A stretch of DNA of 64,000 nucleotides. Origin: an uncultured Algibacter sp. (lineage in GTDB: Bacteria > Bacteroidota > Bacteroidia > Flavobacteriales > Flavobacteriaceae). The position numbers and the translations under genes are program-made. Below the pieces are notes generated by a model. It made no database searches and had not been told where the DNA came from. It saw only the letters and a list, made by a program, of their open reading frames with translations. The stretch is from the NCBI RefSeq assembly GCF_947487575.1, contig NZ_CANKXG010000003.1:62001-126000 (forward strand), written 5' to 3'. Shown here in pieces: positions 7,671 to 62,692 of the stretch (position 1 is the stretch's first letter; every line of letters begins with the position of its first letter).

Positions 7671-7690
7671 GTAACCTGTACTGTGCTGTA
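7671..7690 (-). promoter_or_regulatory. Putative PUL operator, site A (GH5-GH3-GH2-sulfatase operon)
   Basis: Read towards the gene the site is TACAGCACAGTACAGGTTAC. It shares the AGTACAGG core and the trailing TA with the sites upstream of the other PUL units. It begins 54 bp upstream of the GH5 start codon and just downstream of the susD terminator. The regulator is unknown; position and asymmetry suggest an AraC-type or hybrid two-component activator (inference). Confidence 0.6.
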
Positions 7691-7725
7691 AAACTATTTA
7701 CATAAATTACAATTTATGACATAAA

Positions 7726-7754
7726 AAAGACCGAAATAAAAAATTTCGGTCTTT
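7726..7754 (-). terminator. Intrinsic terminator after susD
   Basis: A perfect 12-bp inverted repeat (AAAGACCGAAAT / ATTTCGGTCTTT) with a 5-nt loop lies 26 bp downstream of the susD stop. On the minus strand the hairpin is followed by a run of T, the expected layout for termination of the susC-susD transcript. Confidence 0.85.
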
Positions 7755-7779: not shown

Positions 7780-9360
7780 CTATCTATATCCATTATTTGT
7801 TGGATCTGACTCTAATAAAGCAGGATTATTTATTAACTCTTGTAGTGGAATTGGTAATTTCACATGGTATGATTTAATATTTTCGTTTGGTTTCCAAAAT
7901 CTAAATTCAAGATTTTGAACCACATCTAATAAAATACCCCATCTTATTAAATCATATCTTCTATGCATTTCTCCAGCTAATTCCCATTTACGTTCATCGT
8001 AAATAGCTTCTCTAAACCCTTGCTGGTCTAAACCTAAAATAGCTTCAGCTTCTCCTACTGTAGCATAAGCACGTTCTCTAATTTCACGTATGTACTCAAA
8101 AGCTGCATTCGGATTTCCACCTGGGCGTTCGTTTTCACACTCGGCCGCCATTAAAGCAACATCTGCTAAACGAAATACCATTCTGTTATCAGAGTGATTA
8201 AAACGAGGAGATCTATCTAACTCTAGATTCCAGAATTTTGCCATATAAGGGAAAACTAAATCGAAACCTAAATAGTTATCTACAATATTTAACTCTCTTC
8301 TTAAATCATTGACAGGAAATTTTTCTGCAAAATCCTTTGAAGCAATTTGTAAGCCAGTGCCATTAAAAGCTTCTCCCCTCGCTCTAAGTGCATCACCTAA
8401 AGCTTCTCTTTCATCTGTATTTGCAGGCTCATCTCTTAAACGCGGATTAAACATACTTGGCCTCCAGTTACTATTACCGGCAAAAGCAGCGCCAGGAAAC
8501 GCTGGGTCAAATTGCCCTGTAATATCTTTTGCAAAATCCAATGACCAAATAATCTCTGGATTATATTCGTTAAACTGGTCAAAAACTTCATTGTAAGTTG
8601 GCAATATACTGTGAGGAGATTGGTTTAAAATTTCTAAACACTTATCTAAACCTAGCTGCCATTGTTGTTGCTTCATATAAATTTTAGCCATAACAATCGC
8701 TGCAGCCCATTTTGAAGCTCTACCACTTTGGTCTTCAGTGTAGGCATCTTGTAAATTATCTTGAGCAAACTGCAAATCCTCTAGAGTACCTGTAATTATT
8801 GTAGCCTCATCTGTTCTTCCTAATGAACCAATTTCTTCTAGTGTTAAAACTTCAGTATGATAAGGTGCATCACCCCAAAGATTGGTAATATGCCAATAGC
8901 ATAAACCTCTAATAAATCTAGCATCAGCTACAATATCAGTCCTTACCTCCTGAGTACCTATAGCTTCATTACCTGTTACTCTGTCTATAATTACATTAGC
9001 ATTTAATATCGTTCTATAAAGGTCTTTCCAAGTATCTGAAACACTCATTTTTTGAATAGAAATATCTGCCAAAGCTTCATTCATTGAGTAATTCCCAATA
9101 GGTTCTACAAAGTTTGCAGAACGATTAGGCTCAATAATATCACACCCATTATCATAAAAATGATCCAGCCCTACTTGACCATACAAAGAGTTATTCTTTA
9201 AAATTGCGTACATCCCCTGTACTGCTTGTCTTGCGTCATTTTCTGAAGCAAAAAAGGTTGTAGGAGAAATAATTGATTTAGGGTCTTCTTCTAAAAAACT
9301 CTCACAACTAAAGCATGCAAAAGCTATAAAGACACATAAAAATATATTTTTTGTTTTCAT
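7780..9360 (-). CDS. susD: SusD/RagB-family glycan-binding lipoprotein
   Basis: 526 residues, normal length for SusD-like proteins. The signal peptide ends in FSC (Cys19), followed by ESFLEEDPKS, the usual SusD N-terminus. TPR-type helices are followed by a C-terminal segment with ALMAAECENERPG and IREIRERAY, typical of the SusD_RagB fold. It caps its SusC partner at the outer surface and binds glycan before import. It starts 11 bp after the susC stop and ends before a strong terminator, so the pair forms a two-gene operon. Ligand specificity cannot be deduced; the context suggests a sulfated rhamnose-containing oligosaccharide. Confidence 0.95.
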   Translation of the reverse strand: MKTKNIFLCVFIAFACFSCESFLEEDPKSIISPTTFFASENDARQAVQGMYAILKNNSLYGQVGLDHFYDNGCDIIEPNRSANFVEPIGNYSMNEALADISIQKMSVSDTWKDLYRTILNANVIIDRVTGNEAIGTQEVRTDIVADARFIRGLCYWHITNLWGDAPYHTEVLTLEEIGSLGRTDEATIITGTLEDLQFAQDNLQDAYTEDQSGRASKWAAAIVMAKIYMKQQQWQLGLDKCLEILNQSPHSILPTYNEVFDQFNEYNPEIIWSLDFAKDITGQFDPAFPGAAFAGNSNWRPSMFNPRLRDEPANTDEREALGDALRARGEAFNGTGLQIASKDFAEKFPVNDLRRELNIVDNYLGFDLVFPYMAKFWNLELDRSPRFNHSDNRMVFRLADVALMAAECENERPGGNPNAAFEYIREIRERAYATVGEAEAILGLDQQGFREAIYDERKWELAGEMHRRYDLIRWGILLDVVQNLEFRFWKPNENIKSYHVKLPIPLQELINNPALLESDPTNNGYR

Positions 9361-9371: not shown

Positions 9372-12300
9372 TTAAAAAGTTACGTTTAGACCAAGCGTTA
9401 TAATTCTTGGGTTAGGATACTGAGCACTAAGGTACCCTTGTGCTATATTACTACGTCCAAAATTACTTGCTTCAGGATCTATCAATCTTGTTTTAGACGA
9501 TAACCATAAATTAGTTCCTGAAAAATAAACGGTTGCATTTTTAATTCCGTCTAATCCTAATTTATCAACTGGAAAGTTATAAGCCAATCTTAAGGTTTTA
9601 AGACGTATATGCGATCCATCTTCAACATACTCTGAGTTACTTGGTGTGTTAGTTACAGAATCTCCACCAGCTCTACTTATATTAGAAGTTTCATTAACAC
9701 CTTCCACCCAACGATCACGTAAGTCTCCAAATTTAACTGTCTCCCCACGATTAAAGTAATTATTTCTCATGCTCAAATTATAGACTTCATTACCTTGTGT
9801 ACCTTGAAAATAGAAAGAAAAGTCCCAATTCTTATATGAAAATGAGTTTTCAATACCAAAAATTAAATCTGGAAATGGGCTACCTAATACTATATTGTCT
9901 TCTGTTGAAGAAATACCATCTCCATTCAAATCCTCAAATATAGGACCTCCTACAACCTGTGGATCTGTTCTACCTGATGCATCAATCTCTGCTTGATTTT
10001 TCCAAGTCCCTAAGTATCTAACTCCTGTATAAACAGGAACTGACTCTCCCACAATTAAACGTGTATTACCAGACCCTATAATAGGATCTACTATAATATC
10101 TTGAGATTGCTTACCACCAAGATCTAAAATTTTATTTCTGTTTGCTGACAATGTTACTGTAGAATTCCAATTAAAGTTAGAAGTTCTAACATTGGTAGAG
10201 TTTACAAGCAATTCCCATCCCTGGTTTTCCAATGAACCAACATTTTGTAATTGACTTTCAAAGCCAGTTTGTCTTGGAATAGTAACATCCAATAATAAAT
10301 CTTCAGTTTTCTTGTAGTAATAATTAAATTCTGTAAATATTTTACCACCAAACAAAGAGGCTTCTAATGCAATATCAAAAGAACTCGTTGTTTCCCATTT
10401 TAAGTCAGGGTTAGCAGGTCTATCTATTGTTAAACCAGGTACTTCTGACCCATTAAGTGTTGTGTTAGCAGATGTATAGGTTGCAAGTGTACTAAAATTA
10501 TCAATAGCTTGGTTACCCGATTTTCCCCAACTTGCTCTTAACTTTAAATCTTGAACAGCATTTTGATTTTGCATAAAAGGTTCTTCTGAAATTTTCCAAG
10601 CACCTGCTATAGATGGAAAGAACGCATATTTATTACCTGGTGCAAAAACAGAACTACCATCACGTCTACCTACTAAAGTTAACAGGTATTTATCCTTATA
10701 AATATAATTAATTCTTCCAAAAATAGACTCAATTGTTCTCTGTCCGAAACCACTTGTATTTGAAGCTAATATTGGTCTAGAGTTTTCTAAACGGTTAAAA
10801 CCAGTAGCATCACTAGTAATTCCTGCTGCCGAACTCAAAGCAGATTCGCTAACTTCTTTTTGAAATGAAAGTCCAGCCAATGCCGTAATATTATGATCTT
10901 CTCCAAAATCAGATTGATACTGTACCGTATTTTCATTATTCCAGCCACTTCTTGTCTGAATACTCACACTTGCTGTACCTCCATCAGTAACACCTATAGC
11001 TAAATTACCTGGTAATTGACTTGACGAAAATCTATTTTGTTTAACATTATTAAATTCAGGATTAAATGTAGAACGAATTACCCACTTAGGTGAAGGTCTA
11101 TATTCTAAATAAACCGTTGATAATAAGTTATTAGTAAGCGTTTCATTAGTATTTAGTGCTATTGCTGCTAAAGGATTATTAAATGGCGAACCAACAACAT
11201 CATTAAACCCATTAAAAGACCCATCGTCATTATAAACTGGTTGCGTGCGAAGAATACCGAAAGCTGCTTGACTAAAACTCGCCAAAGCATTATCTTGCTC
11301 TAATCTAGAGTAGTTTAATCTAAACCCTGTTTTTACTTTATCACTTATTTTAAGGTCTAGATTTGCTCTATAAATATATTTTTCAAGACCAGAACTTTTA
11401 ACTATACCTTCTTGATTAAAATAATTTAATGAAGTATAATAGTTTATATTATCTGTTGCTCCAGAAATAGATATATCTGCATTATAAATTGGAGCAGTCC
11501 CTAACACTAAATCAACCCAATCATTGTCAGGATATGAAGATGGATCACCTGGAAATGGTTCTGCAGCAGACCTAAAACGAGCACTTTCGTTTGTAAATTC
11601 TATTTGCTCCCTTTGAGAGAGTCTATCTGGTAATTCTGGTAACATTTGTGAACTCGTGTAAAGATTTAAACTAATCTGTGGTTTACCTGTTCCAGCTCCA
11701 GCTCCATTTTTTGTAGTTACTAAAACTACACCGTTTGCACCCCTAGAACCATAAATAGCAATTGAAGATGCATCTTTTAATATCTCTATGGATTTGATAT
11801 CATTACTATTAATGTTGTTTAAGTTGAAATTTGTTCCAACAATAATACCATCAATAACCCAAAGTGGTTCGTTATTACCAGTAATAGAGTTACCACCCCT
11901 TACTCTAATAACCGTACCTGCTCCAGGTGCCCCATTAACCTGAGTTACTTGTACACCAGAAGCCCGACCTTGCAGGGCTTGATCTACCCTTGAAACCGGT
12001 ACAGCAGTTAAATCTTCTGAACTTACAGAAGAAACTGACCCCGTTAAATCAGATTTACGCTGTGTACCATAACCAATAATCACAACCTCATCAAGCTCAT
12101 TATCTTGTTCCAAAGCCACATTAATTGTAGTCTGTCCCCCAACTGATACTTCCTTGACTAAATAACCTACATAAGAAAATACAAGTGTATTTCCTGAATC
12201 CGCTTTAATGGTATAATTACCATCAAAATCTGTAGTTGTTCCCGTGGCAGTTCCTTTTACCACAACCGTTGCTCCCGGTAGTGGTTGGCCGTCGACAGTT

Positions 12301-12416
12301 ACTGTACCATTTACAGTCTGTGCGTTTGACATAGACATACATGCCAATGCCAAAACAACACACATCCAAGTTTTACGAAAACTTAGACATGTGCCTAGTG
12401 TAGTTTTTAAATTCAT
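9372..12416 (-). CDS. susC: SusC-family TonB-dependent outer-membrane transporter
   Basis: 1014 residues. A signal peptide (to about residue 32, SNAQ) is followed by a carboxypeptidase-regulatory-like domain (VNGTVTVDGQPLPGATVVVKG), the SusC signature after a DEVVIIGYG TonB-box-like segment, and a plug domain with LWVIDGI. The remainder is a 22-strand-type barrel ending in aromatic TLGLNVTF. It imports oligosaccharides across the outer membrane using TonB energy with the adjacent SusD. Two operator-like copies lie 55-97 bp upstream. This is the only SusC/D pair in the window, so it probably serves the whole locus. Confidence 0.96.
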   Translation of the reverse strand: MNLKTTLGTCLSFRKTWMCVVLALACMSMSNAQTVNGTVTVDGQPLPGATVVVKGTATGTTTDFDGNYTIKADSGNTLVFSYVGYLVKEVSVGGQTTINVALEQDNELDEVVIIGYGTQRKSDLTGSVSSVSSEDLTAVPVSRVDQALQGRASGVQVTQVNGAPGAGTVIRVRGGNSITGNNEPLWVIDGIIVGTNFNLNNINSNDIKSIEILKDASSIAIYGSRGANGVVLVTTKNGAGAGTGKPQISLNLYTSSQMLPELPDRLSQREQIEFTNESARFRSAAEPFPGDPSSYPDNDWVDLVLGTAPIYNADISISGATDNINYYTSLNYFNQEGIVKSSGLEKYIYRANLDLKISDKVKTGFRLNYSRLEQDNALASFSQAAFGILRTQPVYNDDGSFNGFNDVVGSPFNNPLAAIALNTNETLTNNLLSTVYLEYRPSPKWVIRSTFNPEFNNVKQNRFSSSQLPGNLAIGVTDGGTASVSIQTRSGWNNENTVQYQSDFGEDHNITALAGLSFQKEVSESALSSAAGITSDATGFNRLENSRPILASNTSGFGQRTIESIFGRINYIYKDKYLLTLVGRRDGSSVFAPGNKYAFFPSIAGAWKISEEPFMQNQNAVQDLKLRASWGKSGNQAIDNFSTLATYTSANTTLNGSEVPGLTIDRPANPDLKWETTSSFDIALEASLFGGKIFTEFNYYYKKTEDLLLDVTIPRQTGFESQLQNVGSLENQGWELLVNSTNVRTSNFNWNSTVTLSANRNKILDLGGKQSQDIIVDPIIGSGNTRLIVGESVPVYTGVRYLGTWKNQAEIDASGRTDPQVVGGPIFEDLNGDGISSTEDNIVLGSPFPDLIFGIENSFSYKNWDFSFYFQGTQGNEVYNLSMRNNYFNRGETVKFGDLRDRWVEGVNETSNISRAGGDSVTNTPSNSEYVEDGSHIRLKTLRLAYNFPVDKLGLDGIKNATVYFSGTNLWLSSKTRLIDPEASNFGRSNIAQGYLSAQYPNPRIITLGLNVTF

Positions 12417-12470
12417 TTAATTTTAGTTTGTTTGTTAATAAGATCCTAAAATATTGTGGAATAATTTATA

Positions 12471-12513
12471 AACTATCCTGCTCCTTCCCTTACTATCCTG
12501 TACTGGCCTGCTA
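12471..12513 (-). promoter_or_regulatory. Putative PUL operator, tandem site B (susC-susD)
   Basis: Two direct copies occur in gene orientation. The upstream full copy is GCAGGCCAGTACAGGATAGT (12492-12511). A half copy, GGAGCAGGATAGTT (12471-12484), lies nearer the start. The CAGGATAG cores are 20 bp apart, about two helical turns, which suits binding on one DNA face by a dimer or tandem monomers. Confidence 0.65.
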
Positions 12514-12633: not shown

Positions 12634-14295
12634 TTATTGAGGAATTAGCTCTATAAGCTTAACACTATGAGGCTCTAAATCTACTTTTAAAGTAACTTTA
12701 CCGTCTATTCTTTCAACAATAGAACCAGTGACAGTTTGTGGTAATTCTGCCATAGTTTTATACTTAGATAAGTTTGTACTCAAAACTGTTTTCCAACCAT
12801 CCTCAAAACGGTCTGAAGGTCTATTACCATAAATACGTCCATTTGTTTTTTCTCCAACACCTGCTGCTCTTATATCTTTATAAAGTTCATGCATCATTAC
12901 ACCGTGGGTTTTATCAACCGTCCACTCATTCATTTTCCATTTAGAATCACCAGAAATTAAGCCCCCTTCCAATTGAGGATATAAGGTTCTTTTTGAAGAA
13001 CTGTTTCTTGTAGTATTGTGGTTATATATTAACAAATATATCTTACCCTCTTTGGTAACTGCCAGAATCCCTGCATGCCCAGTAATGTTATCAATAGTCT
13101 CTAGTCTATTACCTCCTTCCATTTTTAAAAACATTTCAGTAACGTTTCTTCTTCCTTGGGGCAAATCACTATTTTCAATTTCCTGACCCCAATCATATAT
13201 TTCAGTTATTTTATAATCATAAGCTAAATCTGCAATTCTAGCATACCAACTAGCACCAAATTCTGTTCCATCGGTTAAACTAATACCTCTTTCTCCGTTT
13301 TCATCACGTAATATTCCAAACTCTTGTATATCAAAAGGAATATCTCTAAACTGTGAGTAACTATTTAGCTTAGCCCTATATGATTCTACGGTTTCAGGGA
13401 GTTTGATTGTGTTTTGATCCATTTTTTCGTAGTATGATATACAGAAAAAATCCATTTTTGTTCCGATTTCACCGGTTGCATAGTTTGTACCTGTAGCACA
13501 ATGATCTATAATTTCGGTTGAAAAGGTTGCAACGCCTTCTGTCAAATTATTTCCTGGACCAATAATGGCATCAGGAATTACTTTTAGTACTTCATCCACA
13601 GTAATATCATAGTGCTTAAAAAATTCTTCTTTAGTGCCATTCCAGTGCTGTGGTGTAAAATTAGGTTCTGTAGCTACTCTAAAACGCCATGTTTTAACTT
13701 CGTTAATACCAAATTCACCTATCAATGTTTGTAAAAAAGCATTAATATATTGCCTCCAAATATCATAATCATCTGGCGGATTGGTATTACCATATGTATT
13801 CACTTCTTTTACAGCATTCATTTCCCAAGGCACGTTATCTAAAACAATTCTAGGTTTAAAACCTGTAAGCATAAAATTGCGCATATCATTTAGCAAGTCA
13901 CTAAAATCTGTTATAATATTGCCTGAGCCATCTACACCTTTATAAAAATCATTTTTATTGTCTGTTCTACCACCTAGAACACGAACCAAATTATAACTTT
14001 TCACATAGGGTTTTATCTTTTGTATATCTGTTCTAAACCCAGAAGCACTAAATCGAGTTTGGTTTATCATAGGTCTTGTAGACCAAAAGTTATACATCTC
14101 ACCAATTACCGCCCCCGTATTTATCATTACAACTTTATCTGGATCTACCACTATAGGCTCTTCTGGTTCTTCTGGTTTAGGATTTTCAAAAACTTCTTCT
14201 TCATCTATTTGATCAGATTTTGAACAGGTAAAAAACATAAAGCTAGTAAAGATAAATGCTAATGAAACAACTATTTTCCTATGGGGAGTATACAT
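12634..14295 (-). CDS. GH39-like clan GH-A glycosidase, lipoprotein
   Basis: 553 residues; lipoprotein signal with FFTC (Cys24), followed by an acidic, Pro-rich linker (about 30-52). The TIM barrel (about 60-400) carries acid/base Glu210 in FRVATEPN (GH39 enzymes usually read WNEPN) and nucleophile Glu325 in FDIQEFGI. A C-terminal beta-sandwich ends in VKLIELIPQ. GH39 includes beta-xylosidases and alpha-L-iduronidases, either of which would fit a sulfated algal glycan. It is a single-gene unit with its own operator (site C1) and terminator. The clan assignment is firm; the family number is likely and the substrate is inference. Confidence 0.75.
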   Translation of the reverse strand: MYTPHRKIVVSLAFIFTSFMFFTCSKSDQIDEEEVFENPKPEEPEEPIVVDPDKVVMINTGAVIGEMYNFWSTRPMINQTRFSASGFRTDIQKIKPYVKSYNLVRVLGGRTDNKNDFYKGVDGSGNIITDFSDLLNDMRNFMLTGFKPRIVLDNVPWEMNAVKEVNTYGNTNPPDDYDIWRQYINAFLQTLIGEFGINEVKTWRFRVATEPNFTPQHWNGTKEEFFKHYDITVDEVLKVIPDAIIGPGNNLTEGVATFSTEIIDHCATGTNYATGEIGTKMDFFCISYYEKMDQNTIKLPETVESYRAKLNSYSQFRDIPFDIQEFGILRDENGERGISLTDGTEFGASWYARIADLAYDYKITEIYDWGQEIENSDLPQGRRNVTEMFLKMEGGNRLETIDNITGHAGILAVTKEGKIYLLIYNHNTTRNSSSKRTLYPQLEGGLISGDSKWKMNEWTVDKTHGVMMHELYKDIRAAGVGEKTNGRIYGNRPSDRFEDGWKTVLSTNLSKYKTMAELPQTVTGSIVERIDGKVTLKVDLEPHSVKLIELIPQ

Positions 14296-14351
14296 TATAT
14301 AGTTTTTTAAGTAAGTATTATTAGCAAATATAAAATTTTATCCAAAAAACA

Positions 14352-14371
14352 TCACCCTGCACTATCATGGT
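14352..14371 (-). promoter_or_regulatory. Putative PUL operator, site C1 (GH39)
   Basis: Gene-oriented sequence ACCATGATAGTGCAGGGTGA matches CATGANAGTACAGGATA with three substitutions. It starts 57 bp upstream of the GH39 start. It is back to back with site C2 for the divergent sulfatase. Confidence 0.6.
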
Positions 14372-14407: not shown

Positions 14408-14428
14408 CATAACAGTGCAGGATGGTTC
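14408..14428 (+). promoter_or_regulatory. Putative PUL operator, site C2 (sulfatase, + strand)
   Basis: CATAACAGTGCAGGATGGTT in plus orientation, ending about 50 bp before the sulfatase start. The motif flips strand with the gene it serves, which supports a directional activator site rather than a simple repeat. Confidence 0.62.
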
Positions 14429-14478
14429 AAACTACCTTAAAAATTAAATTTGTTTTTATCTTAAAATTTTAAAAATTA

Positions 14479-15900
14479 ATGAAAAAAGTATTATTAGTAT
14501 TTGCTTTTTGCTATTTATCAATTGGGATTTCTTTTGCTCAAAAGCAACCTAACGTTTTAATATTTTTGGTTGATGACTTACGTAATGAGCTTGGTTGCTA
14601 CGGCAACAACATTGTTAAAAGCCCAAACATTGATACTTTAGCTGAAAACGGTATTTTATTTAATAAAGCGTATTGCCAACAGGCAATTTGCGCACCTTCA
14701 AGAATGAGTATTCTTACAGGTTTACGTCCAGAGACTATTGGCATCTATGATATATTTACACCTATGCGAAAGCTACGTAAAGACATTGTATCTATGCCTC
14801 AATTTTTTAAGGCCAACAACTATAAAACTGTTAGCATTGGTAAAGTGTACCACCATTCTAGAGACGACAAAGATGTTTGGGACATATATCATGCTAAAGA
14901 AGCTAATACTTATGTTAAAGCAGAAAGTATGAACCTTATTAAGCGCCTTAAAAAAGAAGGAAAGAAAGCAAAAGGCCCTGCTTTTGAAAAAATTGATATA
15001 GAAGATGAAGCTTATAAAGATGGAAGAGCAGCAAACAATGCTATAAAAGCGTTAAAGCAGTTAAAAGATGATAAGTTTTTAATGGTAGTTGGTTTAAGCA
15101 AACCGCATTTACCGTTCAATGCACCAAAAAAATATTGGGATATTTATGATAAAAACAGCTTTAAAGTGCCCTCAAGAAATAAACCTGAAGGCATGTTTAG
15201 ACTCTCATTAAGCAAATGGGGCGAATTAAAAAACTATTCTAATATTCCAGATGAAGGTGACTTAAATGATAATTTAACTAAAGAACTCATAAACGGTTAT
15301 TATGCTTGTGTAAGCTATATTGATGCCCAAATTGGAAAAATCGTAAATACATTAAACACTTTAGATTTAAGAAAAAATACGCTTATTATTTTTATGAGCG
15401 ACCACGGATATAAACTAGGTGAATATGGAGCTTGGTGCAAGCATTCAAATATGGAAATAGACACAAGAGTACCATTAATTATTAATTATGGCACAAAGAC
15501 CAAAAAAATGAAATCTGATGCTCTTGTTGAAAACATTGATATATTACCAACCATTGCCGAAGCTTGTGGCTTAAACATTCACAAGGTAGATGGAAGAAGT
15601 CTTTTACCGCTAATTGACAACCCAAACAAAGCATGGAACCAAGCTGCCTATAGTTTATTCCCAAGAGGAAAAAAATATATGGGGTGCACTGTTACTAATG
15701 GCAAATTTAGATATACAGAATGGCGAGACTCAAAAACTAAGAAAGTTCTTTCTACAGAATTGTTTAATCATGAAACTCATTTAATCACTGATAAGAACCT
15801 ATCTGGGAATTTTGAATACGAAATGGTAGAAGCTAATATGAAAAAACTTTTGTTAAAGCAATTTCCAGAAAACTACAATTTTTATAAATATCAAGATTGA
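14479..15900 (+). CDS. Iduronate-2-sulfatase-type sulfatase, secreted
   Basis: 473 residues; signal peptide cleaved near ISFAQ (residue 21). The core begins [10 protein letters not shown], with acidic metal ligands at 32-33. The FGly motif CAPSR has Cys71. The distal segment [18 protein letters not shown] closely follows the signature of iduronate-2-sulfatase-like enzymes. In marine flavobacteria this type often removes sulfate from ulvan or fucan oligosaccharides (family knowledge); here the exact target is unknown. It is the only intact plus-strand gene of the PUL, transcribed divergently from GH39 across a 183-bp region with back-to-back operators. It needs an FGly-generating or anaerobic maturase, which is not in the window. 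Confidence 0.9.
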
Positions 15901-20747: not shown

Positions 20748-20767
20748 TTATCCTGTACTTTCATGCA
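20748..20767 (-). promoter_or_regulatory. Putative PUL operator, site D (GH78-GH43)
   Basis: Gene-oriented TGCATGAAAGTACAGGATAA is a perfect match to the consensus CATGANAGTACAGGATA. It lies 74 bp upstream of the GH78 start. Confidence 0.72.
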
Positions 20768-22720: not shown

Positions 22721-22740
22721 AGTGTCCTGTACACTCGTGA
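22721..22740 (-). promoter_or_regulatory. Putative PUL operator, site E (GH-A copy 1)
   Basis: Gene-oriented TCACGAGTGTACAGGACACT lies 53 bp before the chosen start at 22668. The spacing equals that of other sites, which supports the internal ATG over the upstream one. Confidence 0.6.
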
Positions 22741-50398: not shown

Positions 50399-50418
50399 AT
50401 TATCCTGTACTCTCATGC
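50399..50418 (-). promoter_or_regulatory. Putative PUL operator, site F1 (DUF1549-DUF1501-propeller operon)
   Basis: Gene-oriented GCATGAGAGTACAGGATAAT is a perfect match to the consensus, 65 bp before the start of the DUF1549 gene. It links this planctomycete-type operon to the PUL regulon. Confidence 0.7.
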
Positions 50419-50434: not shown

Positions 50435-50454
50435 CAAGATAGAACAGGACACTT
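50435..50454 (+). promoter_or_regulatory. Putative PUL operator, site F2 (lyase-like pseudogene)
   Basis: Plus-strand CAAGATAGAACAGGACACTT shares CAxGANAGxACAGGA with the consensus and ends 69 bp before the pseudogene start. It is back to back with F1, as C1/C2 are. Confidence 0.55.
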
Positions 50455-53162: not shown

Positions 53163-53210
53163 ATCTTTTTCTAGTACAATTAAACGAAAATAGTATTATT
53201 CTGAACTAGA

Positions 53211-53230
53211 ACTATCCTGTGCTTTATGAC
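53211..53230 (-). promoter_or_regulatory. Putative PUL operator, site G (GH-A copy 2)
   Basis: Gene-oriented GTCATAAAGCACAGGATAGT, 49 bp before the GH-A copy 2 start and only 17 bp past the rhaT stop. Read-through from rhaT is also possible. Confidence 0.62.
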
Positions 53231-54299: not shown

Positions 54300-54319
54300 A
54301 TTTTTGAATATAAAATTTA

Positions 54320-55711
54320 TTATAATTTACTTACGTACTCTGGGTTTTTAGTTGTAGGTATTGGCGCATTGGTATCTTTCCACCATTGTTTTAACAATGT
54401 TAATAATTCAGTTGCTTTTTCAGGATTTACTTCTGCTAGATTATTTCTTTCTCCAATATCTTCGGATAAATTATATAACTCTACGCCTTTATCTTCAAAG
54501 TAATAATGTAATTTCCAATCTCCTTTTCTTACTACAGAACCTGGACGCGTTCTAAACAAAGGATCACGATTTTCGTTATCATTTACATTATAAGCTTGTA
54601 AATAAATAGGGAAATGCCAAAATAAAGGACGCTCAAAAACCTGTATTTCTTCTTCTAAAACAGGGGACAAATTATTTCCGTCTAATTGAAGCGCACTCAC
54701 ATCTATTCCCGCATATTGTAATACCGTTGGAAAAATATCTAAATTCGTTATTGGAACTTCACTCTTTGTATTTGGTTGAATCTTACCATTTAACACAAAG
54801 AAAAAAGGTTCTCTAATACCTCCCTCATAATAGCTTCCTTTTCCTGCCCTAAGTGGTTTTTGTTTTGTTATGCCATACAAACCGCCATTATCTGAAGTAA
54901 ACACAATAAGTGTGTTCTCAAAAAGATTTTTTTCTTTTAATTTATTGATAAGTAGTCCTATATTTCTATCTAAATTATCTACCATTGAAGCGTACTCAGC
55001 ATTACCTTGACCTTGCCAAGGTGATTTTTTTTCATATTTAGGCACAATACTATCTACTGCCATTATAGGCACATGAACCGCATAGGGTGAATAATTAAGA
55101 TAAAATGGTTTTTGAACTGTATCTACGAACTTTAAAGCATTTTCCATAACCAAATCAGTCAAATATTGGCTATTACCTTTTTCAATCGTAACATTTTTAT
55201 AAGGTGGATAATAACTTCTAGGCAACCCATTGTGCCCTCCTGCAATATTCACATCAAAACCATATTCTAGCGGATTATCACTTAAATGCCACTTTCCTAC
55301 ATGACAGGTTAAGTATCCGTTTTCGTGTAAAACCTTAGGTAAAATTAGATGTTTTGGCGATAAGGTATGGGTGTTTTTTGTAGGGATTATTTTTCTATCT
55401 TCAGAATTCCCTCGTGTTGAAGGGCTAACTGTATAAACTCCATGGCGTGGTGTCCACTGTCCTGTCATTAAACTGGCTCTACTAGGTGCACAATTGGAGG
55501 CAGACGCATACCCGTTTGTAAACACCATTCCTAAACTAGACAGGTAATCTATATTAGGGGTTTCATAGTATTCACTTCCCATAAAACCAACATCTTTCCA
55601 ACCCATGTCATCAACGTTTATGATAACTATGTTTGGAACTATTGATTCCTGTTTACTCTCACAAGACCAATTAAGTAATACTACTAATAATACCGCTAAT
55701 AATTTTTTCAT
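54320..55711 (-). CDS. Type I (FGly) sulfatase, lipoprotein
   Basis: 463 residues; lipoprotein signal LLNWSC (Cys17). Core start PNIVIINVDDMGWKDVG, with metal ligands at 34-35. FGly motif NCAPSRAS (Cys74). VGKWHLSD supplies catalytic Lys/His, and FTSDNGG the distal Asp/Asn metal ligands. This arrangement is that of arylsulfatase A-like exo-sulfatases. First gene of a two-gene operon with rhaT, so it probably desulfates rhamnose-containing products before uptake (inference from position). Confidence 0.92.
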   Translation of the reverse strand: MKKLLAVLLVVLLNWSCESKQESIVPNIVIINVDDMGWKDVGFMGSEYYETPNIDYLSSLGMVFTNGYASASNCAPSRASLMTGQWTPRHGVYTVSPSTRGNSEDRKIIPTKNTHTLSPKHLILPKVLHENGYLTCHVGKWHLSDNPLEYGFDVNIAGGHNGLPRSYYPPYKNVTIEKGNSQYLTDLVMENALKFVDTVQKPFYLNYSPYAVHVPIMAVDSIVPKYEKKSPWQGQGNAEYASMVDNLDRNIGLLINKLKEKNLFENTLIVFTSDNGGLYGITKQKPLRAGKGSYYEGGIREPFFFVLNGKIQPNTKSEVPITNLDIFPTVLQYAGIDVSALQLDGNNLSPVLEEEIQVFERPLFWHFPIYLQAYNVNDNENRDPLFRTRPGSVVRKGDWKLHYYFEDKGVELYNLSEDIGERNNLAEVNPEKATELLTLLKQWWKDTNAPIPTTKNPEYVSKL

Positions 55712-55770
55712 TCTATTATCAAAATATATTCGATTACAATAACCAAAAATAGTACAGGTTTACATTTTCC

Positions 55771-55790
55771 TTATCCTGATGTGTCATGAT
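55771..55790 (-). promoter_or_regulatory. Putative PUL operator, site H (sulfatase-rhaT)
   Basis: Gene-oriented ATCATGACACATCAGGATAA, matching CATGA and CAGGATA with changes between; it starts 60 bp upstream of the sulfatase start codon. Confidence 0.58.
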
Positions 55791-55805: not shown

Positions 55806-57239
55806 CTAACAAATACTGACTACTCTTAAATTTAACAACTTACCTAATTTATCAATTTTGTTAGCAATATGACCTACACCAATAGCACAATGGTGGGATG
55901 GCCCTTGTTTAGACCACTCATTCATAAAAGCTCTTGCTCCTATTGAAAAACGGTAGCGACTATTTGTATTTCCTATTTGTAATATTGGCCCTTCTACCGA
56001 TTCTCCTTCGGCAACTAATAAAAACACATCATCTTTACCTTCTACTACAGACAATAAAGTTACAGGACCATGCTTAACAGTCATTTGAATTGACAAGCCC
56101 TTTCCTGGTTTTCCATGATACACAGGTAATGGCACTAATTGTACATTACCTTCTGCAATGGCAAAATGTGCAGGCCCATCGTGACCTAACATCACAATAT
56201 CATCATTAAAATCCATCGCATAAAACTCAGAAAATGAACCACCAACACCAAAAGCATCCATAATTTTCATGGCTTGGGCATTTTTCACTTCATATTCGCC
56301 TGCAACTGGTACATTTTTTCCTGTTAATAAGGTGTTTCCTGCTATAACAGAAGTTACAATATTTTCATATTCGTTTCCTGATTCGCCTTCATAATAATAG
56401 GCTAAAGAACCTAAATCGTGGTTTTTAACCAATTTATCTAAAGCTATTGATGTTTTTGCTGCGCGTACCAATTCTTCTTCTTCACAAGCATCAATCACTT
56501 CAAAGGTACTTTGGAATTCAGCTATTTTTTCACCAACCTCGTCATTTGTAACAGCATCTCTGTACTTTTTCACTTCACACATTTCGACAATTTCTATATG
56601 CGTTCCAAAAGCTGAAGATTGTTTTGTTAAATCGGAATACACGTCTAACATACCTGCATAATAATGCCCTAAAACACCAAGTCTATTATTTTGCATTATC
56701 GAAGCGACTTTTGTAGCATCAATCCAATCCTGAATTTCGTCCCAAACTACTTGCTCTCCTAAATGACCTGTTACAAATTCGTAATCTATTCCTGCACGAT
56801 TAAACACATTTGCAAATTCTGGTACCGAACAAGCCTGACAATGTGCTAACCACTCTCCAGTCATTTTCCCACGATCTCCTAATGCATTAAAGCTTTCGTA
56901 ATCTATAGCTGCAACAGGTTGTATATTTAAAATAACTATTGGGCATTTTACTTTTTGTACTACAGGTAATACTGTAGATGATAAGGCATACGTAGATATG
57001 TATAAAAATAAGATATCTACATCTTCTGTTTTTAGCACCTGAGCTTTTTCTCTTGCAACCACAGGGGAATCTACCAAACCAACATTGACAACCTCAGCAC
57101 CAAAACTTTCCATTTTAGTTGCTATTTGTTGTTGATAACCTTCTAACCGTTCTAATAAGCCTTCAAATTGCGGCCAATAGGTATCTAAACCGATACCAAA
57201 AAGACCAACTTTAATTTTTTTTGAATCTGTTTTATTCAT
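55806..57239 (-). CDS. L-arabinose/L-fucose isomerase-family protein (AraA-like), cytoplasmic
   Basis: 477 residues, no signal peptide. The AraA fold is recognisable: VGLFGIGLDTYWPQFEGLL, LDVYSDLTKQSSAFGTHIE, NVPVAGEYEVKNAQAMKIMD, VYHGKPGKGLSIQ and GPSHHCAIGVGHI. By comparison with E. coli AraA, metal-binding candidates are Glu in GSFSEFY and the His residues of VYHGKPGK and GPSHH. It should isomerise an aldose to a ketose; with rhaT close by, L-rhamnose is a plausible substrate, but L-arabinose or L-fucose cannot be excluded. Last gene of the GH106 operon, starting directly at the preceding stop codon. Confidence 0.78.
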   Translation of the reverse strand: MNKTDSKKIKVGLFGIGLDTYWPQFEGLLERLEGYQQQIATKMESFGAEVVNVGLVDSPVVAREKAQVLKTEDVDILFLYISTYALSSTVLPVVQKVKCPIVILNIQPVAAIDYESFNALGDRGKMTGEWLAHCQACSVPEFANVFNRAGIDYEFVTGHLGEQVVWDEIQDWIDATKVASIMQNNRLGVLGHYYAGMLDVYSDLTKQSSAFGTHIEIVEMCEVKKYRDAVTNDEVGEKIAEFQSTFEVIDACEEEELVRAAKTSIALDKLVKNHDLGSLAYYYEGESGNEYENIVTSVIAGNTLLTGKNVPVAGEYEVKNAQAMKIMDAFGVGGSFSEFYAMDFNDDIVMLGHDGPAHFAIAEGNVQLVPLPVYHGKPGKGLSIQMTVKHGPVTLLSVVEGKDDVFLLVAEGESVEGPILQIGNTNSRYRFSIGARAFMNEWSKQGPSHHCAIGVGHIANKIDKLGKLLNLRVVSIC

Positions 57240-58112
57240 TTAATGGTTAGTTTTATTTTCTTCTTCTGAAGAATTTTCAACATATTTTAATAACATCTCT
57301 TTTACCTGATATACGGCAGGTTGAATTTCTCCATTATTTATATTAGCTCCAGTTATCCAATAATATATCATACCTGCATCAGAACAATCCCATTTTCCTT
57401 TTTGAAACTTAACAACATTATCAATCTCTGCTGTTTTTCCCATTAACCACACCCAATTTAACCTATGATCATTATGATTCTTTGCCCAATCCCATTGCTT
57501 TTCATATACTTTTAGTAAAATATTTTGATCAGGAATACGGACTTCTTCTACATTAAACGCTAAAATTTCTTCCCATTCATAAAACTCGCCAGTTTGGTCG
57601 TTTGCTGGATGATGCGTAATAACTTTTACAAATTTATGTTTCGACTTTAAAGATGCATCTAGTGCTAAACCTATTAAATCTGGTTCTCCTGCTTCTACAA
57701 TCCAAAGCGGATCTTTCTCTGAAGACGCATTAATAGCTTTTGCTAAATCCTCAATTGCTTTATCTAAATTCCATTTTACATCAATAAAATCTATATGATC
57801 GAACCCACCCCAACGTCTAGCAGTACCATCACAAGTAGTTTGCATTAATGCATGACGCTCTTTTTCAGCTGCTTTCGAAATTCTATTAGAAGGGACAATA
57901 TCGCAACTGTGAGAATAATGCACCAACCTATCTGCTAATCCAGCCGAACGCAATAATGCAAGAGAAACAGCTGTTCCTCCTAAATCATCTGGATCAGGAG
58001 AATTGCCGTCGGCAACTACAGCTATACGACCTAGAGGTGGGTTAATTATTTGTGAAAATGTAGTTTCTGATATTAACAACATTGTTATTATAAAAAAAGC
58101 TATTTTATTCAT
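57240..58112 (-). CDS. Nucleoside-hydrolase-superfamily secreted protein
   Basis: 290 residues; signal peptide ending TFSQ (residue 21). VVADGNSPDPDDLGGTAVSLALL resembles the Asp-rich Ca-binding loop of nucleoside hydrolases (DxDxxxDD), and a late Asp (GKWDCSDAGMIYYW) fits the second ligand. LWIVEAGEPDLIGLALDAS matches the core strand. In a PUL a secreted member probably cleaves an N- or O-glycoside, not nucleosides (inference). Between the CBM-like and isomerase genes, adjoining the latter with no gap. Confidence 0.68.
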   Translation of the reverse strand: MNKIAFFIITMLLISETTFSQIINPPLGRIAVVADGNSPDPDDLGGTAVSLALLRSAGLADRLVHYSHSCDIVPSNRISKAAEKERHALMQTTCDGTARRWGGFDHIDFIDVKWNLDKAIEDLAKAINASSEKDPLWIVEAGEPDLIGLALDASLKSKHKFVKVITHHPANDQTGEFYEWEEILAFNVEEVRIPDQNILLKVYEKQWDWAKNHNDHRLNWVWLMGKTAEIDNVVKFQKGKWDCSDAGMIYYWITGANINNGEIQPAVYQVKEMLLKYVENSSEEENKTNH

Positions 58113-58154
58113 TTTTAAAATTTTTATTAAGTTTTAACTTAGTCTGCTTATTGA

Positions 58155-59411
58155 TTAATCTTGAGAATAAGATGATTGCGCATTTAATATTTTTTTACCT
58201 TTTCCTACTGGAGTAAATATAATTCCTGCCCAACGCCCACGTGTGAACTCTTTTCCATCTGTTCCAACCTCAGCTTTAACAGTAATTTTATCACCTTTGT
58301 TCATCTTGATTCCTTTCCAAACCTTTGTAGATTTTTTACCTTCCTCAAACATTTTATCAATTAAAGGTGGTTGATAAGTTCCGAGTTCTTTTCCGTTAAT
58401 CAATACTTGAAATGTAGAACTGCCATCATTTTCACCAACTCCAACAAAAACGATATCGTAAGTTCCACTTTCAAAATTAAATACTGTACTCGTTATTGCT
58501 TTTTTATGAGTTTTTGGATTTATAGCCATCCAATTTTTTCCATTAGTGTAAAAATCGGTTCCTACTGACGGAAACTGTTGCGCAGCAATCCATTTATTTT
58601 TAGGTAATGCTTCTGCGATTGTTTTAAAATAATTTTTTTTTATAATTGGTGCTGATACACTAGGATATGGTTTAGGAAGTTGCCCAATAGTATTCACTTT
58701 TGCACCTTTGCCCTTTGGGATATACAGCTTATCCTGTGCTAAAATAAATTTATCAAACTCAAAACCATCTTCACGCATGCTAAATAGAATATCATGCACG
58801 CCAGCTTCTTTAATATCTAAATAAATATTATGAGGAATTCCACAATGTATTTCTTTAGTACGCTGCTTGCTAGCCCATGTCCAACGTGTTTTACCATCAC
58901 ACCATTGCATACGCTGGCCACTCTCTGGCCACTCGCCATTTAGCCCTACATGTATACCATTATCTTCGCTACCTGTACTCATAGCTCGAACCCAAACATA
59001 ATAACGCCCAGGAGTATTAAATTTAACTTTATAATGTAGCGTAGCCAAAACACCAGGCACATCACTGAAATTTTCCCCTTTAATTAATGCATCATCATGA
59101 GTTACTCTTGTGTCTGGCAAAATTTCTAGGTAAGCGTTGTTACTAGAACCATAAACGTGCAATGTATCTTCATCTCTACCAGCATTAGGTTTTTCAAACT
59201 TTGATGAACGGTACCATTGTCTAACATTAGTGTTAGTTTGTTTATAAAAGAATTCGGCTTCAATAGCCACAAGCCCAGATTTTTCTTCAAAAACAACATT
59301 TTCATCAACAATAGAGTTTGTGTTTTTTTTTGATTGCGCATTTGATATAAAACCAACGCTTGTTAGCAGAATTGTAAGTAATACTTTAATTTTCATTTGT
59401 CTTAATTTCAT
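58155..59411 (-). CDS. Secreted GH115-C-terminal-like carbohydrate-binding protein
   Basis: 418 residues; signal peptide ending SNAQS (about 26). Residues 35-225 resemble the GH115 C-terminal module: SGLVAIEAEFFYKQTNTN, TPGRYYVWVRAMSTGSEDNG, and DILFSMREDGFEFDKFIL near its end. Residues 260-400 form a second jelly roll (FNFESGTYDIVFVGVGENDGSSTFQVLING). No catalytic residues are evident; it probably binds glycan at the cell surface or in the periplasm. Its start overlaps the GH106 stop by 4 bp, implying translational coupling. Confidence 0.7.
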   Translation of the reverse strand: MKLRQMKIKVLLTILLTSVGFISNAQSKKNTNSIVDENVVFEEKSGLVAIEAEFFYKQTNTNVRQWYRSSKFEKPNAGRDEDTLHVYGSSNNAYLEILPDTRVTHDDALIKGENFSDVPGVLATLHYKVKFNTPGRYYVWVRAMSTGSEDNGIHVGLNGEWPESGQRMQWCDGKTRWTWASKQRTKEIHCGIPHNIYLDIKEAGVHDILFSMREDGFEFDKFILAQDKLYIPKGKGAKVNTIGQLPKPYPSVSAPIIKKNYFKTIAEALPKNKWIAAQQFPSVGTDFYTNGKNWMAINPKTHKKAITSTVFNFESGTYDIVFVGVGENDGSSTFQVLINGKELGTYQPPLIDKMFEEGKKSTKVWKGIKMNKGDKITVKAEVGTDGKEFTRGRWAGIIFTPVGKGKKILNAQSSYSQD

Positions 59412-62263
59412 TTATTAATAAGTTTTATAGGCCCTTCTAAACCTGTTGGCACCAAATCTTTATATCTTTTTGTCCACTCGCACACCATTTTATTATTCTT
59501 AAGTGATTTGGCATAATTTGCTAAAACGGTTGTATAATGAATTTCAATCTCATTATCCTCTCTTTTAAGATAATCAGCCACTGGATAAATCGCTTTACCA
59601 TACCAACGTTTTCCAATTTTTTCTCCATTTATAAATAACTCTGTTACACCTTCGTTTACATTACCTAAATCTAAATGCGTAAAATCTCCTGAATTATCTA
59701 TAGTTGTTTTATAAATAATTTCCCCTCCAAAAGTATTTTGAGTACTATCTTTTGATTTACTGAAATCAATAAGCGTTGGCATATTCCAGATAAATGTTTT
59801 GTCATCCTTCCGTTTTCCTTCTACTTGCCAATTAACATCGAGTACTTTTGATTTATTTATTTTTGCAGTAACAGGTTTTCCTTTTTCTTTAGGTTCTTCA
59901 TCTTCAAAAACTAATAAAAGAGATTCCAAAGGATTTAAAGTGACACTTAACTCATTTGAATTCAGTTCAAAATAACAGGGCTTTTTCTCCCCTGTTTCTG
60001 GATTCCATACCCATGGATATTTACCTTCAACAGGGAATTTAGCATCAAAAGATGTTGTTTCAAAACGGTTTACGTTGGTAAAGAAATAAATATCTTTATC
60101 ATGGGTGTATTGATGGATTTGATAGACTTTATTGGTTGGATTACTGATAAGCACATCTGCTTCTAACTGCGTTGTTTTCAGAATATCTTTTGTCCAGTTG
60201 AATAATACCTCTATGGATTTTGGTCGCTTTATTTGAATTAAAGATTCAGGGTAACTCGCAGATAAACTGGTTATGATATTCTTAACTGAAGCATCGTTCT
60301 TTTCATATTCTGAATAGTGCAAAGATTTGATTGGCAATTGGTCTATAACTATAACTTTTCCACCAGACTCCACCAATGCTTTAATATTTTCTGCTGCCTT
60401 TGGGCTTAATGATTTTAAGCTGGCTAAGACTAACAACTTGTAGGTCATATTACCATAGATAATTTTACCTTCATTTATAGAAGCTCTTTCAAGAACACCT
60501 TGATTAATATATTCAGCAGAATACCCTAATTGACTTATAGGTTCCCATAATCGATATAAATACTCTGGTTCCATGTGGAAAGGCGTTCTTGCTAAACCTT
60601 TATCTCCCCAGAGGTCTGCAGTTGACCCTAAAATAGCAATAGATTTATCGGCTTGAGAGTTTTGAAACACAAAGGATAATCTAGAATTATAATCTATCCA
60701 ATTAGGTAAGTGTTTCCACCAAGTGTTTTGCTCACTAAAATAGGTACCAAAACGAATCCATCCAGGAAACTCAACTTCTGGTGGCGAATAATTATAACCG
60801 TGCAGAACAGAATGATTTATTCCCGTGATAAAATTCATATCATCATGCTGCTTTATTTCTTCAAGTGTAGCTTTAAATACACCACCTAAATTGGTCATGG
60901 CTTCACAACTCGTAATCTTTTTATCTGTTAGATGCGCTCCAGCTGAAGCATACATATTCCAAATCATATAGCCATGAGATTGCTTCCAATCCCAAACAGA
61001 ATCTTTCATCTCAACAGTATAAATCCAATTGTTACTTTCTGGTATATCTGGTATCATGTAACCATCTAACATCCCCATTAAAAAAGGCGTTCCGTAGGCT
61101 TGATAACGGCATAGAATATTGTTTTCTTCACAAAAATCTTTATAAATCTGAGTGAAGTTTTTTAAAAACACCTCAACCAATAACTTATTATAATCGTATC
61201 GTACACGCTTTAACTGGTCTTTAAACTCAGGAGTGAAATTTTCAGAATACTTTCCTTGTGAGTAATTACCAGTAGCTTGATAAAAAATAAAAGGTAGCCA
61301 ATTATCTAGTTTATAGCCATAGGTCTCAAAAAACAGATTTTCAAAACCATCTGTCCAATTGGCTCCAGAAACTTCTATGCTATCACAAAATATGGCTCGA
61401 ATTAAATTACTAAGCAGAATGCCTGAACGTTCTGATATTTTCTTCATCCGATTTAAATACGCCAAGGTTATTTCCTTTTTATAATGATCCATTACAGGGC
61501 CTGCACCACCAGGAGCACCCAGTGTAACATCTCTAAAATTTTGCTGAATTAAACCATAAGACAATACATAATTACCTTTTTGTTTTATTTGATAAAAGAT
61601 TTTACCGCTAGCATCTATATGATTCTTTAAATCGACTATTTGATTTGTGTCACTACAATTTTCAGGTACTAGTTTAATATACGACAGCCTGTAAGTTGTT
61701 CTTTTACTGATATGCCTTTGTGATCTGTTGTTTTTGTACTTTTCTTTATATAATTGTATCAACCCAACTTCATCAGCTTCAATAATTGCACCATCCTTAT
61801 AAAAAATATAATCTGACACCATACGTTGAGACGTCTCATTATCTTGAAGAAACTCTCCTCCAAATGGCCAACCTGTTCCGGCAATCATATCGGTAATCAT
61901 TCCCAAATCTTTGGCTTTTTTACAGGCATGTACGACCATATCAATCCATTCATCACTCATCCAAACTAAGGATTCATATCCACTATCAGAATCTACAGGC
62001 ATTGCAATAGGATTTATTTCAACACCCCCAAAACCAACACTTTTAAGCGATTCTAATTCCCTATCCAATTCTTGGGTTTTTATTTTATTGCCATTCCACC
62101 ACCAACGTACAAATGGGCGTGCTTCAGTTGGTGGATTTTTAAATCTACTATACAAATCAGGCTTTATTTCTTCTTTTTTTTGAGTACTACAAGCATTTAA
62201 AATCAATAAACAAAATAACAGAAATAGCAAACTAGATATTTTTCTTTTTTTCAATAAGAACAT
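59408..62263 (-). CDS. Glycoside hydrolase family 106 alpha-L-rhamnosidase, lipoprotein
   Basis: 951 residues; lipoprotein signal LLILNAC (Cys25). The GH106 hallmark ARPFVRWWWNGNKIKTQELDRELESLKSVGFGGVEINPIA opens the barrel (residues 48-90). Further typical segments are IAGTGWPFGGEFLQ, GAPGGAGPVMDHY, IFCDSIEVSGANWTDGF and NFITGINHSVLHGYNYSPP. A C-terminal galactose-binding-like domain ends GLEGPIKLINK. It hydrolyses alpha-L-rhamnosides, complementing GH78. First gene of the four-gene operon; operator I lies 117 bp upstream. Confidence 0.92.
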   Translation of the reverse strand: MFLLKKRKISSLLFLLFCLLILNACSTQKKEEIKPDLYSRFKNPPTEARPFVRWWWNGNKIKTQELDRELESLKSVGFGGVEINPIAMPVDSDSGYESLVWMSDEWIDMVVHACKKAKDLGMITDMIAGTGWPFGGEFLQDNETSQRMVSDYIFYKDGAIIEADEVGLIQLYKEKYKNNRSQRHISKRTTYRLSYIKLVPENCSDTNQIVDLKNHIDASGKIFYQIKQKGNYVLSYGLIQQNFRDVTLGAPGGAGPVMDHYKKEITLAYLNRMKKISERSGILLSNLIRAIFCDSIEVSGANWTDGFENLFFETYGYKLDNWLPFIFYQATGNYSQGKYSENFTPEFKDQLKRVRYDYNKLLVEVFLKNFTQIYKDFCEENNILCRYQAYGTPFLMGMLDGYMIPDIPESNNWIYTVEMKDSVWDWKQSHGYMIWNMYASAGAHLTDKKITSCEAMTNLGGVFKATLEEIKQHDDMNFITGINHSVLHGYNYSPPEVEFPGWIRFGTYFSEQNTWWKHLPNWIDYNSRLSFVFQNSQADKSIAILGSTADLWGDKGLARTPFHMEPEYLYRLWEPISQLGYSAEYINQGVLERASINEGKIIYGNMTYKLLVLASLKSLSPKAAENIKALVESGGKVIVIDQLPIKSLHYSEYEKNDASVKNIITSLSASYPESLIQIKRPKSIEVLFNWTKDILKTTQLEADVLISNPTNKVYQIHQYTHDKDIYFFTNVNRFETTSFDAKFPVEGKYPWVWNPETGEKKPCYFELNSNELSVTLNPLESLLLVFEDEEPKEKGKPVTAKINKSKVLDVNWQVEGKRKDDKTFIWNMPTLIDFSKSKDSTQNTFGGEIIYKTTIDNSGDFTHLDLGNVNEGVTELFINGEKIGKRWYGKAIYPVADYLKREDNEIEIHYTTVLANYAKSLKNNKMVCEWTKRYKDLVPTGLEGPIKLINK

Positions 62264-62692
62264 GTTGTCTTTTCTTTAATTTTACTTAGGATAATTGATT
62301 CATTCTTTATATTCAACCTTCAAATCTGGAATAACAAGAATAAAACAATACAACAAGTATACTATTTTTAAAAGCTATCTCTATCATGCACTCCCATGCT
62401 ACTTTTATTTTTTTATAACCTCACATAGGTAATCAATAACTAAGCTAAAAAAGAACATATAAGTTTTATAGTGCAACACATAAATTTACTATCCTTTCAA
62501 CAGGATTCTTTCCATCAATAAACCATAATTATAAAATTTATATTTTAATCTTTATATGCTTACTTCACTAAACGAAAAGCAATCTTTTATTTATAGTTAT
62601 TTTTAATTATGTATTCAAAATACTAATTCCATTTTCACAAGTTCTTAACCCTGATATATCTATTTCAAAATTATCTCTTACTGAATTATACA
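62264..62692. other. 429-bp intergenic region upstream of GH106
   Basis: AT-rich region with operator I at 62380-62399. No open frame of coding character and no clear terminator for the upstream GH106-like gene were found. Confidence 0.6.
62380..62399 (-). promoter_or_regulatory. Putative PUL operator, site I (GH106 operon)
   Basis: Gene-oriented GCATGGGAGTGCATGATAGA matches the consensus at most positions (G for C in CAGG read as CATG). It is farther from the start (117 bp) than the other sites. Confidence 0.55.

Follow-up and report, generated by a model that had tools for sequence, protein, structure and literature searches.

Is the polysaccharide utilization locus (PUL) of an uncultured Algibacter sp. 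held together by one operator, and which protein would read it? We addressed this for a stretch of 64,000 nucleotides (the window; positions 62001-126000 of contig C3) from a 3.5-Mb genome (G000) that probably belongs to Algibacter, Flavobacteriaceae, with a G+C content of 33% both in the window and on C3. The window carries susC/susD, glycoside hydrolase (GH) genes of families GH2, GH3, GH5, GH39, GH43, GH78 and GH106, two sulfatases, RhaT and a fragment of a family 28 polysaccharide lyase (PL28). Because of this enzyme set and of two long PL28 matches (C3:156507-158057 and C11:10189-11166), the predicted target polymer is ulvan. An initial annotation had described an asymmetric motif upstream of 11 units as the mark of a PUL-wide regulon and had assigned it to an AraC-type or hybrid two-component system (HTCS) activator encoded outside the window. 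Our analysis recovers the motif as a direct-repeat operator at a nearly fixed distance from the promoter. We lean towards the view that the sites are operators of a single ulvan/rhamnose regulon, read by a chimera of a GntR-type winged helix and a LacI-type sensor (clade I) and acting in positive control.

A correctly oriented site was present upstream of all 11 listed units, on the coding strand in every case, including the two plus-strand units (Table 1). Scored with a matrix refined on C3 itself, so that values for the window are partly circular, nine units have strong sites (18.4-24.5 bits) while those of GH106 (15.2 bits) and of the second GH-A-like copy (9.8 bits) are weak. The distance of 50-75 bp before the start codon that had been claimed for most sites was borne out in ten units (50-77 bp; measured from the ATG at 22668 for GH-A-like copy 1) and not for GH106 (118 bp). 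We also built a foreign matrix from 60 distinct sites at 49 loci not named Algibacter (some of the records are labelled Flavobacteriaceae only, with no genus); its training sites were picked with the C3 matrix at ≥18 bits, so it is not wholly independent. The foreign matrix identified seven window sites at ≥14 bits, all seven intergenic and gene-oriented in a window that is 9% intergenic. By comparison, 40 Markov windows gave a mean of 0.2 and a maximum of 1, and the reversed matrix gave one match at ≥14 bits and none at ≥16. It missed both GH-A-like copies, sulfatase-rhaT (12.0 bits) and GH106. A 45-bp foreign composite model (site, 20 bp and the promoter -7 element described below) recovered eight units at ≥16 bits versus none in 40 Markov windows, missing GH78, GH-A-like copy 2 and GH106; together the two foreign models recover nine of the 11 units.

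A scan of 320,000 of the 322,913 bp of C3 returned 26 sites at ≥16 bits, all 26 intergenic and upstream of a same-strand open reading frame (ORF) of at least 100 aa; the best site within an ORF reached 15.5 bits. Beyond C3, 345,117 bp in 18 stretches, several of them picked for holding pattern matches, contained five such sites, of which three are promoter sites (a divergent pair on C8 and the C11 PL28 gene) and two lie inside ORFs. Exact copies of GTACAGGATA number 13 in the genome, ten of them on C3 and 11 intergenic; one, at 23,679-23,688 of the window, is within an ORF and its 17-mer scores 11.9. The string given in the initial annotation, allowed up to three mismatches, matched 11 times in the window versus 0.68 ± 0.85 in 100 shuffles. 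Ten of these matches are sites of listed units and one (7602) overlies the GH5 start codon, with GH-A-like copy 2 missed. Genome-wide, the same loose string found 51 matches versus 36 for the backward pattern and is not specific by itself. A chance origin of the sites was rejected on the shuffle, Markov-window and C3 placement counts.

The motif turned out not to be asymmetric. It is a direct repeat, CAGGAYA-N3-CAGGATA, 17-18 bp long with sharp borders, in which two 7-bp boxes are arranged head to tail one helical turn apart. Across 30 sites the self-match is 4.87 of 7 letters at period 10 versus 0.9-1.9 at periods 6-9. The 40 bp upstream of the sites show no conservation, and downstream only the -7 element is conserved. 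Neither a palindrome nor the 21-bp repeat of HTCS and AraC-type RhaR sites was found; the head-to-tail arrangement is that of MocR-type GntR sites and the period is that of the 10-11 bp direct repeats of DeoR-family RhaR sites. Upstream of susC, four boxes stand in 10-bp register, with the nearest unit in the standard promoter position. A natural operator array in Maribacter (L268:2818-2874) has six CAGG boxes in exact 10-bp steps and ends 20 bp before a promoter-like TATATTTG.

The operator is tied to the promoter by a constant gap. TAnnTTTG (at least five of six letters) begins 20 bp beyond the operator at 23 of our 32 own sites, with no other offset seen more than twice, and at 58 of 71 sites from loci selected on the protein alone (next offset 18, n = 13). 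These are the two independent counts; a third, 99 of 155 sites in regions of relatives (next offset 9), is partly circular, the regions having been chosen with a model that contains the -7 element. In flavobacteria, the -7 box of sigma-A promoters is TAnnTTTG (PMC9723704). Because of the fixed 20-bp gap, the operator sits about where a -33 element would be. An RNA-level element was set aside, the site being upstream of the -7 element.

The regulon extends well beyond the PUL, covering about 230 kb of C3 and two further contigs. We counted a genome as motif-bearing when it had at least two matches to the composite model (R1) at E≤0.01; this was applied to a set of 60 genomes of relatives, G000 included, 12 of which are motif-bearing. 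The operator is kept in nine of ten genomes of the genus, G006 being unmarked. The shared operator and the regulon of the initial annotation are supported, and they reach further than this PUL. Genes behind sites on C3 include a rhamnose-type row with a bifunctional rhamnulose-phosphate aldolase/dehydrogenase above its NCBIfam cut-off (RhaD-ADH, C3:6917-9028, with its own site), an isomerase-like TIM barrel under its cut-off, an FGGY kinase, a flavin mononucleotide-dependent dehydrogenase and an aldehyde dehydrogenase. Further site-bearing genes on C3 code for rhamnosidases of families GH78 and GH106, a sulfatase fused to GH78, another SusC-like protein and a mannonate-oxidoreductase-like short-chain dehydrogenase/reductase; two more contain 3-keto-disaccharide hydrolase domains, and three are GntR/LacI genes. 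Outside C3, the PL28 gene on C11 has a site, and so do two C8 genes, one for a cysteine-rich (CCG) protein and one for a protein of 464 aa with no Pfam match.

The regulon stretch encodes two HTCS proteins, one AraC protein with a cupin domain, four GntR/LacI chimeras and one FCD-type GntR as candidate readers; another AraC gene lies outside it at C3:285 kb. The clade I chimeras are tandem genes (C3:9551-10597 and C3:10699-11745) beside those of rhamnose catabolism. They lie some 50 kb upstream of the window, in agreement with the earlier placement of the regulator outside it. The C3:10699 copy is above the cut-offs of PF00392 (GntR winged helix) and PF13377 (LacI-type sensor), and the C3:9551 copy is just under the latter (26.2 vs 26.5); the sensor matches Peripla_BP_3 and is not the aminotransferase-like domain of MocR proteins. 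The tandem genes are 68% identical, and relatives have either a pair (G004, G007) or a single gene (G008).

Clade I tracks the operator closely. The C3:10699 gene is found in 11 of 12 motif genomes versus two of the 48 others, and in the genus nine of ten genomes have both motif and clade I while G006 has neither. G008 combines 23 sites in 140 kb with a single GntR/LacI gene, 91% identical to ours. A wider family draw covered 149 genomes. Of the 32 with one or more matches there, 26 carry clade I, and of the 28 clade I carriers, 26 have a match (Fisher 4e-21, without correction for relatedness). In 52 of 57 public clade I loci, whose source genera range from Algibacter to Polaribacter, Winogradskyella, Flavobacterium and Echinicola, at least one site (≥16 bits) lies within about 5 kb, for a total of 71 sites versus two with the reversed matrix. 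These associations make it likely that the clade I chimera is the reader of the operator. A clade I dimer would bind the two boxes head to tail and contact RNA polymerase from the -35 region, with rhamnose or a derivative released from ulvan serving as effector once in the cytoplasm; some 30 promoters would be switched on by this rhamnose-linked activator. The activator role is likely because the promoter spacing is fixed.

A second group of chimeras, clade II, shares about 30% identity with clade I in the sensor and 42% in the winged helix. An upstream site (≥13 bits) was present at 21 of 22 distinct clade II loci versus one of 31 distinct clade III loci; clade III GntR/LacI genes (e.g., C17:4998) were rejected as readers on this count. 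The lone clade III locus with an upstream site, L208, falls close to the cut-off for clade II, and at L199 a site lies just downstream. Most clade II sites are a variant, CRGAACAGAACAG. Measured to the aligned protein start, start codons not having been mapped, 12 of the 21 lie 15-46 bp, six 91-145 bp and one 72 bp before it, and two overlap it; the sites close to the start look like self-repression. Among genomes without clade I, R1 matches occur in two of six with clade II versus four of 115 without (p = 0.03). Lys-59 and Tyr-61, which by analogy we take to lie in the recognition helix, are kept in every one of the 34 rows of clades I and II, which include one duplicate, whereas each is present in only three of 18 clade III rows. 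C3 itself holds four such paralogues, two of clade I (9551 and 10699) and two of clade II (212835 and 238756). A tentative idea, which we consider less likely than not, is that all four, having these two residues in common, read the same CAGGAYA-N3-CAGGATA repeats. One promoter-spaced cis code might then integrate several ulvan sugars (rhamnose, uronic acids and xylose) by competition or mixed occupancy, and longer 10-bp arrays, as at susC and in the Maribacter locus, might provide dose control.

Several observations weigh against clade I as an activating reader. Five of the 57 chimera loci have no site at ≥16 bits, although three of these are truncated by the end of a contig. Clade I without a composite match at E≤0.01 occurs in G010 and G111, although in G010 two 17-bp sites flank the clade I gene. 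Conversely, matches without clade I occur in G029 (two) and in G028, G073, G113, G135 and G153 (one each), the single G028 match lying upstream of a clade II gene. The motif correlates with AraC and HTCS orthologues as well, each type occurring in six of 12 motif genomes. Of the 60 genomes, 13 have clade I and every one of these carries rhaAD too, so the link between motif and regulator is partly confounded with rhamnose genes; the rhaAD loci L295, L302 and L297 (the last at a contig end) show no site at ≥14 bits, and L295 and L302 have no clade I gene beside them. Winged-helix identity to clade I is 0.42 for clade II and 0.43 for clade III, leaving only single positions to separate them. AraR, a GntR/LacI chimera, is named a repressor in its PDB entry. 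Typical GntR sites are palindromes (PMC4494728), direct repeats being used by MocR-type GntR proteins and a few others such as FarR, NagQ and NanR (PMC5320631, PMC4494728).

The alternative that survives best, though we consider it unlikely, keeps a GntR/LacI protein on the sites as a repressor that a sugar releases. Besides the name of AraR, an operator that covers the -33 region could keep polymerase off, and the 12 clade II sites at 15-46 bp are suggestive of repression. The constant 20-bp spacing across many promoters speaks for activation instead. A TTG at -33 was found in none of 31 regulon promoters; for 56 background promoters, taken at their three best offsets, the figure is 18%. The comparison is weak, given that the operator itself occupies that place.

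Still less probable is that another protein, such as a winged-helix response regulator or the FCD-type GntR C3:201413, binds the operator and clade I is a mere neighbour through rhamnose metabolism. Direct repeats of 10 bp at -35 also suit OmpR/PhoB-like proteins. They suit DeoR proteins as well (PMC3870299), and clade I and rhaAD do co-occur. Against this, clade II genes carry sites also in genomes without a rhaAD hit (G026, G028), and in the regions of relatives searched (regions, not whole genomes) the FCD-type GntR was found only in G004 and G008. DeoR as the reader was rejected, with no DeoR-domain protein (PF08220) found in the genome at E≤0.001, while a control was found in 13 of 14 genomes.

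The two regulator types named in the initial annotation are both very improbable and were rejected as readers, on repeat spacing and on orthologues missing from six of 12 motif genomes each. For the AraC-family protein C3:153312 (cupin and HTH_18), binding of the 17-bp site would be as a monomer with two helix-turn-helix (HTH) units one turn apart. Contacts one helical turn apart would suit a two-HTH AraC domain. The gene sits between two operators next to site-bearing genes, and is present in six of 12 motif genomes versus none of the 48 others. However, no orthologue (hits ≥70%) was found in the motif-bearing G001, G003, G004, G008, G020 and G029, G008 having no match at E≤1e-30 despite its 23 sites, and AraC RhaR sites have 21-bp periodicity (PMC3870299). 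An HTCS (C3:166478 or C3:225157) activating on ulvan oligosaccharides as in Bacteroides PULs gains from both genes lying within the regulon stretch and from orthologues (≥45%) in six of 12 motif genomes versus one of 48 others. It founders on Bacteroides HTCS sites being direct repeats about 21 bp apart (PMC3878776), none of which occur here. With up to ten candidates scored per genome, no orthologue at ≥45% was found in the motif-bearing G001, G002, G005, G008, G009 and G029, and G008 had no match to C3:225157 at E≤1e-100 among ten of its 58 candidates.

AraR sites are palindromic. The AraR subfamily of GntR, described from Firmicutes (PMC4494728), shares with the predicted regulator its domain plan of winged helix plus LacI-type sensor and its sugar link, and differs from the present system in the head-to-tail 10-bp repeats and activator-like position found here. 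MocR proteins (GabR, PdxR, TauR; PMC5320631) likewise combine a GntR winged helix with often head-to-tail sites, and several are activators, but their sensor is aminotransferase-like rather than LacI-like. The closest published motif structure that we found is that of the DeoR-family RhaR regulons (PMC3870299), where rhamnose genes have two imperfect direct repeats of 10-11 bp periodicity. The system described here differs in its fixed promoter distance, its reach to polysaccharide enzymes and susCD and the absence of a detectable DeoR protein. The HTCS regulons of B. thetaiotaomicron (PMC3878776) also have direct-repeat operators upstream of susC/susD and glycan enzymes, with repeats about 21 rather than 10 bp apart; the motif here does not track HTCS genes. 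The carrageenan regulon of Zobellia galactanivorans (PMC5698469) is another marine flavobacterial system with member genes far from the PUL; it has an AraC-family regulator, and no shared operator is described in the text examined. XylR/XylRA of E. coli and Vibrio (PMC12125979) offer a precedent for a LacI-type sensor on an activator with a monosaccharide effector and a polysaccharide locus, as proposed here, although their DNA-binding domain is AraC-type. A biosensor paper (PMC12858550) was set aside, being built on E. coli RhaS and, in the part consulted, silent on the native regulator. Searches of the open-licence PubMed Central (PMC) literature, subscription papers and RegPrecise being outside that scope, yielded no report of this operator or, for Bacteroidota, of a rhamnose or ulvan regulator of the GntR/LacI type.

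In Bacteroides, control of PULs commonly falls to HTCS or SusR-type regulators, whose signals are mostly oligosaccharides (PMC3878776). Here, a regulator of the cytoplasmic sugar-sensor type appears to govern use of a whole polymer through about 30 promoters over 230 kb. Its predicted reach takes in the rhamnose pathway, an ulvan lyase that is unlinked to the locus and, on another contig, a cysteine-rich redox gene. Because the operator form is strict (10-bp boxes, 20 bp to the -7 element), it can serve as a genome search tool to list ulvan- and rhamnose-linked flavobacterial genes, including those for proteins of unknown family, and operator plus -7 element make up a promoter part open to direct testing. 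Operator-bearing genes without a Pfam match at E≤0.001 (C3:154242-156158, C3:175417-176196 and L048:8064-9458 on C8) are candidates for uncharacterized ulvan-linked functions.

Table 1. Operators and -7 elements of the listed units. Positions are those of the window; scores are in bits, from the C3 matrix and from the foreign 17-mer matrix (m) or foreign composite model (c).
Unit (gene positions)	Operator	Strand	C3 matrix	Foreign model	-7 element	-7 position	Remarks
GH5 (6223-7617), then GH3 and GH2	7672..7688	-	21.7	20.7 (m)	TATCTTGC	7644-7651	operator CAGCACAGTACAGGTTA; -7 a degenerate candidate
susC (9372-12416)-susD (7780-9360), distal unit	12494..12510	-	24.4	22.8 (m)			
susC, proximal unit	12474..12490	-	15.5		TATTTTAG	12446-12453	20 bp downstream of distal unit; -7 20 bp from proximal unit
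GH39 (12634-14295)	14353..14369	-	20.7	26.8 (c)	TATATTTG	14325-14332	
Divergent sulfatase (14479-15900, +)	14408..14424	+	21.0	25.9 (c)	TAAATTTG	14445-14452	
GH78-GH43 unit (15998-20674)	20749..20765	-	23.9	18.6 (m)	TACCTTCA	20721-20728	-7 degenerate
GH-A-like type IX secretion system (T9SS) protein, copy 1 (20905-22668)	22723..22739	-	19.0	18.8 (c)	TAGTTTTG	22695-22702	
PSCyt/DUF1549-DUF1501-propeller unit (44907-50334)	50401..50417	-	24.5	21.1 (c)	TAAATTTA	50373-50380	
PL28 ulvan-lyase fragment (50523-51017, +)	50435..50451	+	21.7	24.6 (c)	TATTTTTA	50472-50479	
GH-A-like, copy 2 (51399-53162)	53213..53229	-	9.8		TATTTTCG	53185-53192	weak, operator-like
Sulfatase-rhaT unit (53247-55711)	55772..55788	-	18.4	19.4 (c)	TATTTTTG	55744-55751	
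GH106 unit (55806-62263)	62382..62398	-	15.2	under cut-offs	TATACTTG	62354-62361	weaker

In the weak site of GH-A-like copy 2, the upstream box is displaced by one base, and the CACAGGATA box and the -7 spacing are retained. As the initial annotation had noticed for an inserted segment at 23-45 kb, the stretch 22,740-50,400 of the window has no operator at ≥16 bits. It holds MacB-type efflux genes, serine hydrolases and an NtrC-type response regulator together with its kinase (42170-44896). On either side stands a motif-bearing GH-A-like gene, and the PSCyt/DUF1501 unit at the right end of the stretch has a site. Elsewhere on C3, the sulfatase-GH78-type rhamnosidase fusion under an operator is 1177 aa long (C3:180363-183896; L040:363-3896). 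The PL28 fragment, 164 aa and just under the Pfam cut-off, retains a strong operator and a -7 element.

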